Below are positions 30,308 to 46,204 of a stretch of 64,000 bases of DNA, one piece after another; position 1 is the first letter of the stretch, and every line of letters begins with the position of its first letter. A program made the position numbers and the translations under genes. Under the pieces are notes generated by a model. It was not told the origin of the DNA. It saw nothing but the letters and a program-made list of their open reading frames with translations, and searched no databases. Source of the DNA: a virus; IMG/VR virus record IMGVR_UViG_3300025154_000073, positions 1 to 64,000 of that record; one strand, written 5' to 3'.

Positions 30308-31075
30308 CTATTTCTTCAATTCTCCTTCCCATAAGATACCATCCTGACCATGAAGCCTCCATAGTTTTCCGTCAAAGGATGGGACTAATCCCACATTCCA
30401 TAAATCAACTGCTGGTTGATATGGATACGTCTTTTTCCAATCTTTTACAATGGGCACAAAAATACTGACCGTATAAGCCCACACAGAATCTCTCACAGAA
30501 TCTCTCACAGAATCCCACACAGAATTCCACACAGAATTCCACACAGAATTCCACACAGAATTCCACACAGAATTCCCCACAGAATTCCCCACAGAATTCC
30601 ACACAGAATTCCACACAGAATCTCTCACAGAATCTCTCACAGAATCCCACACAGAATTCCACACAGAATCCCACGCTTTAAGCAATTCCAATTCCTTTGA
30701 ACTGATTTTCCCATGTTTTAATGTAAATGGATTTAGTGGGCTGGCAGCTTTCAGATAATCCCATTTGAATAACGTTTCTGGTTTTACTTCCCGTTCTATT
30801 CTCAAGAATTCAAATCCCGCCTTATCCGATTCTTCGAGTACTGGAGTTCCATACACGATGTACGCAGAACATGGTATGGATGCTCCGATAAAGCATTGAT
30901 CTGGTTTTCGGCTGGCGTGAAGAAACGCATTTGAACATAACCTTCCAGTTTCGGAGAAATGTGGTGCGTACACATCCCACCCGACACTTTCTCGGTAGTT
31001 TATGGTTTTTCCTGTGTAAAAGTCAAAACCATCTGGTCTTGCGAGTTTGTAGAACTTTTGTAGTTTTGTTTTCAT
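30308..31075 (-). CDS. Tetrapeptide-repeat protein A
   Basis: A 255-residue protein in three parts. Residues 1-134 form a globular domain. Residues 135-198 are 16 four-residue units of the type [W/R/G][D/N]SV (WDSV WNSV WDSV RDSV ...). The end (QPAVDLWNVGLVPSFDGKLW) is a second globular piece. The protein at 33087-33905 shares the layout, including the ELLKAWDSV junction and the PSFDGK.WRLH end. A repeat of period four could make an amphipathic solenoid or filament. I know no function for it. Confidence 0.75.
   Translation of the reverse strand: MKTKLQKFYKLARPDGFDFYTGKTINYRESVGWDVYAPHFSETGRLCSNAFLHASRKPDQCFIGASIPCSAYIVYGTPVLEESDKAGFEFLRIEREVKPETLFKWDYLKAASPLNPFTLKHGKISSKELELLKAWDSVWNSVWDSVRDSVRDSVWNSVWNSVGNSVGNSVWNSVWNSVWNSVWNSVWDSVRDSVRDSVWAYTVSIFVPIVKDWKKTYPYQPAVDLWNVGLVPSFDGKLWRLHGQDGILWEGELKK
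30482..30673. repeat. 12-bp tandem repeat array in protein A
   Basis: About 16 units of 12 bp (variants of ACAGAATTCCAC / ACAGAATCTCTC), all in frame. Units carrying GAATTC dominate. The array is open in several frames, so long spurious reading frames appear on both strands. Confidence 0.9.
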
Positions 31076-33086: not shown

Positions 33087-33905
33087 CTATTTTGTACATT
33101 CAAAGACGATCTCGGCATTTTTCCCTGAGTGTAATCTCCATGTTTTTCCATCAAACGATGGCACAAATCCTCGCTTCCATAGATCAACACAAGGCTGAAA
33201 TTCATAATTGTTATCCCAAATATAAAATAAACTTCCGATGTAAGCCCCCACAGAACCCCCCACAGAATCTATCACAGAATTCCCCACAGAATTCCACACA
33301 GAATCTCTCACAGAATCTATCACAGAATTCCCCACAGAATTCCCCACAGAATTCCCCACAGAATCCCACACAGAATTCCACACAGAATTCCCCACAGACC
33401 CCCCCACAGAACCCCCCACAGAATCTCTCACAGAATTCCACACAGAATCCCACACAGAATTCCACACAGAATTCCACACAGAATTCCCCACAGAATCTCT
33501 CACAGAATCTCTCACAGAATCCCACTGCTTTAATAATTCAATGTCTTTTTTTGTGGGCTTTGATTTATTGGCTAGTGGATTGATTGGATTTTGCGCTTCC
33601 TTGATATTAATTAATGGATATACCTCCTTTTTCCACTTCTTAAGGGAGCGCAGAGCCTCTGCTGAGTGTGAAGCAGACCACCATGACGGAATATCTTCTT
33701 CATCAACATTCAATGTCCAATCGCAATCTGGATATAAATATCCTTTATCTGGTGTGATCTCCACCTTTACGGAATTTCTAGATGCTTCTTTCAGTTCTGG
33801 GTACTTAGACAGATATCTAGAATACAGCGTGTCGTGAGAGGAAATGCCGCGCTCCCAAATTACTTGGTGACTTCTTGTTACAATACATGAAAAATCTTTA
33901 CACAT
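33087..33905 (-). CDS. Tetrapeptide-repeat protein B
   Basis: A 272-residue paralogue of the protein at 30308. The N-terminal domain (1-127) differs. Residues 128-219 are 23 units such as WDSV, RDSV, GNSV, GGSV and IDSV. The end QPCVDLWKRGFVPSFDGKTW matches protein A. So the repeat and the C-terminal module are shared while the N-terminal domain is exchanged, which suggests one scaffold with two specificities. Confidence 0.75.
   Translation of the reverse strand: MCKDFSCIVTRSHQVIWERGISSHDTLYSRYLSKYPELKEASRNSVKVEITPDKGYLYPDCDWTLNVDEEDIPSWWSASHSAEALRSLKKWKKEVYPLINIKEAQNPINPLANKSKPTKKDIELLKQWDSVRDSVRDSVGNSVWNSVWNSVWDSVWNSVRDSVGGSVGGSVGNSVWNSVWDSVGNSVGNSVGNSVIDSVRDSVWNSVGNSVIDSVGGSVGAYIGSLFYIWDNNYEFQPCVDLWKRGFVPSFDGKTWRLHSGKNAEIVFECTK
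33249..33524. repeat. 12-bp tandem repeat array in protein B
   Basis: About 23 in-frame units of 12 bp. Unit order differs from the array in protein A, although the unit types are the same. Such arrays change length by slippage. Confidence 0.9.
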
Positions 33906-34322: not shown

Positions 34323-34622
34323 AGTTTTCAGCCTCTCGGTTTCGGTTTTGACATTCGTACTAGGTAGCGGGAGTCGCGCTCGAAGCGACCTCAATGCTGA
34401 GTTTATGAAACTCGCTCTGACCCATGCCAGCCTCCCGCAGTGTTTATTTCTTTCTGCCTTCGCTTAGGTCATAACTCCTAAGCCTTGAAAAACACTTGTG
34501 GGCGGAGCATTGTCTTTTTGCTCACGGGCTTTGACTTCGCCTGCTTCATTCAACATAGTTGAATTGCGCCCACATTTTTAATATATCACGATTGCGCTCT
34601 CTTAGGATTAAATCTTCCTAAG
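34323..34622 (-). ncRNA. Candidate structured RNA B (about 300 nt)
   Basis: Non-coding stretch with many paired segments: a closing stem TGTGGGCG (34497-34504) with CGCCCACA (34567-34574), an inner hairpin at 34548-34564 (ATTCAAC), and hairpins at 34463-34482, 34399-34413, 34373-34389 and 34601-34622. On the - strand it begins right at the stop of the gene at 34618 with AACACTTAGG, the same words found at the start of candidate RNA C. No known family recognised. Confidence 0.5.
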
Positions 34623-34926
34623 TGTTTGACAATATGGATTTGGCTTTTAATAGAATTCTTGCAAAGTGCCTGTGGGAGGCGTATCTTTCTGGATTTGCTA
34701 TAATCCAGGAGTTTTCTCCATCCATTTCATCAAATACTTCCTTTATAAATTCTGTCAATGCGGCGATGACGGTGGCACTATCGTCTTCCTTCTCGAATGT
34801 TGTTGTTTTCCATTCCTGCTTGCGCCCTATCGGGGCTTCGCGTCCACCGACGGGGCATTGGTTGGTTTCAAAGTGATGTAAACCGTATTCGCCGCCACAG
34901 TTTTTACATTTATCGTATGTGTTCAT
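34618..34926 (-). CDS. Zinc ribbon protein
   Basis: A 102-residue protein with CKNCGGEYGLHHFETNQC at 7-24, a CxxC...C zinc site typical of small phage proteins. The C-terminal part is helical. The stop (TAG) sits in the hairpin that opens candidate RNA B. It is the first gene after the CRISPR array. Confidence 0.65.
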   Translation of the reverse strand: MNTYDKCKNCGGEYGLHHFETNQCPVGGREAPIGRKQEWKTTTFEKEDDSATVIAALTEFIKEVFDEMDGENSWIIANPERYASHRHFARILLKAKSILSNT

Positions 34927-35038: not shown

Positions 35039-35128
35039 CGGTTCATCCCCACGTGTGTGGGGAATACCATGGCAGGAATATAGTCACTGTCTCTTGACAC
35101 GGTTCATCCCCACGTGTGTGGGGAATAC
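35039..35128 (-). CRISPR. Two-repeat, one-spacer CRISPR mini-array, type I-E-like
   Basis: Identical 29-bp repeats at 35039-35067 and 35100-35128 flank a 32-bp spacer (35068-35099), exactly the type I-E unit size. The repeat has the CCCCAC/GTGGGG stem and on the - strand ends in ATGAACCG, close to the E. coli crRNA handle ATAAACCG, so the crRNA sense is the - strand. No cas gene is in the window. It would need a host Cascade. The right repeat is joined to a zinc-ribbon reading frame. Confidence 0.85.
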
Positions 35129-35268: not shown

Positions 35269-35338
35269 TGTTCAGGTCTACGGGGACGAGTGGAGTAATT
35301 CTTATTGTAACATAACGACTTTTCCATAGACCTGAACA
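35269..35338 (-). repeat. 12-bp inverted repeat in the 5' leader of the CRISPR transcript
   Basis: TGTTCAGGTCTA (35269-35280) and its exact complement (35327-35338). With the promoter at 35344-35352 the transcript would start at the base of this stem. Confidence 0.6.
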
Positions 35339-45669: not shown

Positions 45670-45823
45670 ATGAAAAAATTCAAAGCCGTGCCAGTGGCAC
45701 ACAGTAAAGATGATTTGGGCGGGTACAGGCGGGCATGCGGGGTGGTGTGAATTGGAAAAGTATTGGGTGGCACTTCGCCAGTAACGCAAACCGTTCTACC
45801 GCACTTGCAAACAAAGGAGTCTT
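45670..45823. other. Intergenic stretch with cassette-like leader
   Basis: A weak 26-codon frame (45670-45750) is the only coding candidate. The end has CGCAAACCGTTC, which recurs before the gene at 46205 and, inverted, beside 28785. Confidence 0.35.
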
Positions 45824-46087
45824 ATGACTAAGAAATTGAAACTTGAGAATACAGAGCGTGGCTTTGCTAGGTCAGATTTTGATGACCTATATGGTAGTCA
45901 TTGCTCAATTCAGGAAAGTAGCCTTGCCACAGATAATGCAATCTGGCTTGGCGTGCATGAAGGTTCGGCGCAATATGACAATAAAGAAAGTTCTCGTATG
46001 CACTTGAATCAAGAACAAGTAGCGTCATTGCTCCCGCTTTTGGAGCGTTTTGTGAAAACTGGTCGCCTTCAAACGAGAAGGCGATAG
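45824..46087 (+). CDS. Cassette-like conserved protein
   Basis: An 87-residue protein. ERGFARSDFDDLYGSHCSIQ, ESSLATDNAIWLGVHEG and SRMHLNQEQVASLLPLLERF match a frequent metagenomic family found as stand-alone cassettes. Function unknown. GGAGTC precedes the ATG. Confidence 0.65.
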   Translation: MTKKLKLENTERGFARSDFDDLYGSHCSIQESSLATDNAIWLGVHEGSAQYDNKESSRMHLNQEQVASLLPLLERFVKTGRLQTRRR

Positions 46088-46204
46088 AACACGGCGTGCA
46101 ACGGATTTGCTTTACGGGCTGGCAAAATCGGGAGCAATGACACAATCCGCAAACCGCTCACGCAAACCGTTCGGCGGACACGCCCAACGCCCAGAAGGAG
46201 AAAA
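46088..46204. repeat. attC-like imperfect palindrome
   Basis: The left part GCGTGCAACGGATTTG is partly complementary to CACAATCCGC...CTCACGC on the right. GCCCAAC (RYYYAAC) stands near the end. Resembles an integron cassette junction; pairing is imperfect. Confidence 0.35.

Follow-up and report, generated by a model that had tools for sequence, protein, structure and literature searches.

Mini-arrays carried by viruses have been reported to exploit the Cas proteins of the host against related viruses (PMC6858448, PMC11656645), and a review defines them by one or two spacers with host-like repeats, the leader being no part of the definition (PMC11656645). The mini-arrays of SPV1 and SPV2 (Sulfolobales) carry a leader resembling the one in front of the host's own array (Medvedeva et al. 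2019, PMC6858448), and the functional evidence on virus mini-arrays in these works comes from archaeal viruses. Solitary phage repeats act as RNA anti-CRISPRs (Racrs; Camara-Wilpert et al. 2023, PMC10651486), with type I-E examples among them that were positive in tests; under the SRUFinder rule, a solitary repeat unit is a single repeat with no second one within 100 bp (PMC10651486).

The window analyzed here, a stretch of 64,000 nucleotides, belongs to a virus record of 73 kb (73,044 bp) and harbors at positions 35039-35128 a mini-array composed of two 29-bp repeats, identical to each other at 29/29 positions, and a single 32-nt spacer between them (Table 1). The array has a period of 61 bp and is best read on the minus strand, where the repeat handle is ATGAACCG. 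The original prediction had located both repeats and the spacer correctly to the base, and its assignment to the type I-E format is borne out by the repeat length of about 29 bp, the 61-bp period and the ATGAACCG/ATAAACCG-like handle. Allowing up to three mismatches, these two copies of the repeat are the only ones in the window (none in 100 shuffles) and likewise in the whole record. Both are undecayed, and the pre-crRNA region folds better than its shuffled versions (z -3.7).

Table 1. Features of the mini-array and its surroundings (window coordinates).
Feature	Position	Strand	Description
Small zinc-ribbon-like protein gene	34618..34926	-	Next gene downstream of the array, same strand
CRISPR repeat 2 (3' in transcript order)	35039..35067	-	GTATTCCCCACACACGTGGGGATGAACCG, same as repeat 1
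Spacer, 32 nt	35068..35099	-	TGTCAAGAGACAGTGACTATATTCCTGCCATG
CRISPR repeat 1 (5' in transcript order)	35100..35128	-	GTATTCCCCACACACGTGGGGATGAACCG; exact match to repeats of bacterial I-E arrays
Truncated endonuclease VII / HNH-type gene, first 31 codons	35129..35222	-	PHROGs matches to the zinc-finger part
Inverted repeat	35269..35338		Arms of 15 nt with 93% complementarity, separated by 40 nt; lies upstream of the endonuclease fragment
ATPase-like phage gene	35404..36168	-	On the strand of the array and upstream of it; L112 has a homologue

The record represents a tailed phage, with terminase, portal, tape measure, SSB, Erf recombinase, methyltransferases and helicase recognized by PHROGs; the terminase, portal, Erf and SSB genes uphold the phage location that had been proposed for the array. 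An assembly chimera was considered and appears unlikely: phage genes of the same orientation run on both sides of the array and its flanks are unlike those of host arrays, but the site is covered by a single assembly. The terminase is only distantly akin to those of named phages. One IMG/VR contig is 100% identical to the record over 15 kb and several others are 46-89% identical to it in the terminase; the array repeat is absent from these IMG/VR relatives, the terminase relatives being fragments, with contig L112 the only one observed to extend as far as the array. No viral relatives were found through the ATPase, and a terminase search for prophage relatives, run without a positive control, gave none in 400 genomes of the order Anaerolineales and none in 150 of the Desulfovibrio order. 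The absence of cas genes, first noted for the window, extends to the possibly incomplete 73-kb record, in which a tblastn search using 12 Cas proteins of two Anaerolineales as queries returned a single chance-level match (E 0.03). An Rfam search gave no match. Carriage of a CRISPR array by a phage is shared with complete phage CRISPR-Cas systems, e.g. that of ICP1, but systems of that type have cas genes, none of which were detected in this record.

Exact copies of the 29-mer repeat were located in 16 genome_contigs stretches, most of them arrays of Anaerolineales/Chloroflexi, with a few further carriers, namely rumen Desulfovibrio, Thiomargarita and a Pyrinomonas bin. In a sample from the class of UBA2395 it was present in 4/396 genomes, with a fifth genome carrying it with one mismatch. 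A 117-repeat array (L106) adjoins genes for Cas1e, Cas6e, Cas5e, Cas7e, Cse2, Cse1 and Cas3 in the same genome; the NCBIfam matches exceed the cut-offs of the I-E models and, in the case of Cas3, those of its core and HD domain models. Cse1 was found in four of the five repeat-bearing genomes searched, the Desulfovibrio bin being the one without it. The original prediction had named the lack of any similar repeat at an I-E locus of a host as grounds for refutation; this outcome did not arise, the repeat adjoining I-E operons in Anaerolineales being identical. Like these arrays (L106, L105, L107), the phage array has the same repeat (29/29), a period of about 61 bp and the same handle; the bacterial arrays, in contrast, are longer, and several of them adjoin a cas operon and begin behind cas2 with a conserved leader that ends in ...AATAAGG, whereas the phage unit has one spacer and neither operon nor leader. 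An attC-like 18-mer of the phage was found in 10/251 Anaerolineales genomes and in 0/150 genomes from the order of the repeat-bearing Desulfovibrio; in three of the ten Anaerolineales it forms pairs with a spacing of about 700 bp. Because of the exact repeat match and the common attC-like element, the probable host is a member of the Anaerolineales (Chloroflexota) that has a type I-E system, an assignment to be read with the occurrence of the same repeat in the rumen Desulfovibrio and other carriers. The exact repeat match ties a phage without close named relatives to type I-E Anaerolineales.

The attC-like elements (CGCCAGTAACGCAAACCGTT) lie at window positions 45776-46200 and 28796 and flank a small gene (45824-46087), which resembles an integron gene cassette within the phage; the element recurs in Anaerolineales genomes. 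Spacer 37 of a UBA2395 array (L010; DDSH01000010.1) covers 24 nt of this element, matching 24/24 at 45776-45799 with its first 8 bases unmatched. It was rejected as proof of phage targeting, since the 20-mer recurs in another Anaerolineales genome (G151) and the 18-mer in further genomes, as an attC-like repeat; the element serves here solely to mark the host lineage. To judge from this match, CRISPR in the L010 lineage may sample integron cassettes. The other host spacers compared with the phage (480 in all) matched it at or near the level of reversed-spacer controls.

Overall, the phage unit has one spacer between full repeats, no detected cas genes and a repeat identical (29/29) to that of the candidate hosts. 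It resembles the mini-arrays of the SPV1/SPV2 type in its one or two spacers with host-like repeats, the lack of cas genes and the intergenic position in a viral genome, and differs from them in belonging to a bacterial phage, in being of type I-E and in having no host-like leader. The missing leader is not taken to exclude it from the mini-arrays, since the review definition does not include one. In contrast with the SPV-type mini-arrays, no spacer target was found for the phage array, and we infer its link to rival viruses. The array is a well-formed fresh example of an already known trick.

The reading favored here, with moderate confidence, is that this is a virus-borne mini-array on a tailed phage of a probable I-E Anaerolineales host, whose crRNA would be loaded by host Cascade against a competitor. 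Read-through from neighboring phage genes would transcribe the array, and host Cas6e would cut both hairpins of the transcript to release a 61-nt crRNA, consisting of an 8-nt handle, a 32-nt guide and a 21-nt hairpin and starting AUGAACCG-UGUCAAGA. Once loaded, this crRNA would direct host Cascade/Cas3 at a competing phage or another mobile element. The exact repeat of the likely hosts, the I-E operon beside it in L106, the attC-like marker of host lineage, the I-E spacing, the undecayed repeats, the better-than-shuffled fold, the similar units on other viral contigs and the reported use of host Cas by virus mini-arrays support a guide; against it count a host that we infer and the failure to find a protospacer, a leader or an above-chance promoter.

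Searches for a spacer target were negative throughout. No match was obtained in viral_contigs with sixth positions left free or with the first 21 nt of the spacer, nor among phages and plasmids. With as many as three mismatches allowed, 251 Anaerolineales genomes and 13 genomes that carry the repeat likewise gave none. A related virus matching the spacer was also not found, the close relatives of the phage being fragments only. The sole viral match of a looser pattern, in which wobble positions were left free, is on contig L116 and was rejected as a protospacer since its 22/32 identity is at chance level. This outcome would also suit an RNA anti-CRISPR. In that case repeat transcripts made in excess would tie up Cas6e/Cas7e, or fill Cascade with a guide of no relevance, and the phage would escape host immunity; the spacer target would then be irrelevant, and a repeat exactly that of the likely host, together with the type I-E Racrs already described, fits the same explanation. 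The locus shares with Racrs the presence of host-like repeats on a phage that lacks cas genes; Racrs, however, are solitary repeat units, and here a second identical repeat lies 32 bp away, so that two complete repeats enclose a canonical 32-nt spacer, an arrangement that SRUFinder excludes. Inspection beside the array, made without an acr library, recognized no known acr gene. This explanation is considered unlikely. Of the two roles originally proposed, guide or Racr, the shared basis of format, location and missing cas genes stands, and the Racr role is weakened by the exclusion of full repeats 61 bp apart. The locus offers a clean, one-spacer, leaderless case for asking whether phage mini-arrays serve as guides or decoys.

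The immediate setting of the array bears on its expression and origin. Repeat 1 directly abuts the end of the truncated endonuclease gene, which matches phrog_1035 (E 5.7e-6), phrog_2633 and phrog_2340, the other parts of the domain being missing. The sequence upstream of the array is this fragment and is unlike the host leader; promoter scans gave nothing recognizable above chance. The array and the main neighboring genes are all on the minus strand, which makes read-through transcription plausible, and transcription of the array could come from the endonuclease fragment instead of a leader. The inverted repeat upstream of the fragment is a possible operator or terminator. In L112 different small genes come after the ATPase gene, and the corresponding location holds no array and no endonuclease, so that the array position looks like a variable accessory site.

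The array without a leader or a found target, abutting a truncated gene at a site where L112 has neither, might also be a passive remnant, i.e. a piece of host array recombined into a broken endonuclease gene and devoid of present function. A remnant of this kind is nevertheless improbable, as the repeats remain identical to each other and to the bacterial repeats (58 sites unchanged), the array comprises precisely two complete units whose ends are clean, and comparable units recur on other viral contigs. It is similarly doubtful that the leaderless mini-array arose in the broken endonuclease gene and uses the transcription of that gene, a nuclease weapon having been swapped for an RNA guide of host Cascade. 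A solitary repeat in the endonuclease gene could even have become an array through insertion of one spacer by host Cas1-Cas2.

As for these comparable units, two or more I-E-like repeats that end in GGGGATGAACCG were found in each of 44 viral stretches, and in about 16 of them, some from the same phage, the unit is a two-repeat one. A single two-repeat stretch (L061) had Cas homologues in the flanks that were fetched, the search having used Anaerolineales Cas protein queries, by which distant cas genes could be missed. The survey suggests that two-repeat I-E-like units without detected cas genes recur on IMG/VR contigs of bacterial phages.

Repurposed CRISPR guides have precedent, and a partly complementary guide might repress a phage or host gene, such as the host cas operon. 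The viral contig group L028/L041, in which the mini-array spacer matches its own phage 33/33, is compatible with such a regulatory crRNA, but neither this phage nor the Anaerolineales cas loci that were fetched contain a seed match of at least 10 nt from the 5' end of the spacer, and a regulatory role is regarded as highly improbable. In L041 and its relatives L028, L032 and L045 the 33/33 match lies elsewhere in the same viral contig; the spacer also matches the near-identical contig L053, whose array differs, and is thus a self-matching phage spacer.

Two further sequence features of the phage were observed. The palindrome AAACACSGTGTTT is present in ten copies, at window positions 840, 3809, 19037, 24007, 44850, 46462, 47199, 51250 and 60635 and, past the window in the same record (L019), near record position 71191, mostly between genes or at gene starts; similar palindromes occur in L112 and none in base-shuffled sequence, and it is a possible operator or promoter element. 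The proteins encoded at 30308-31075 and 33087-33905 contain long runs of a short repeat of the DSVRDSVWNSVW type, and L112 encodes an analogous repeat protein of the AEYARYAEYAE type.
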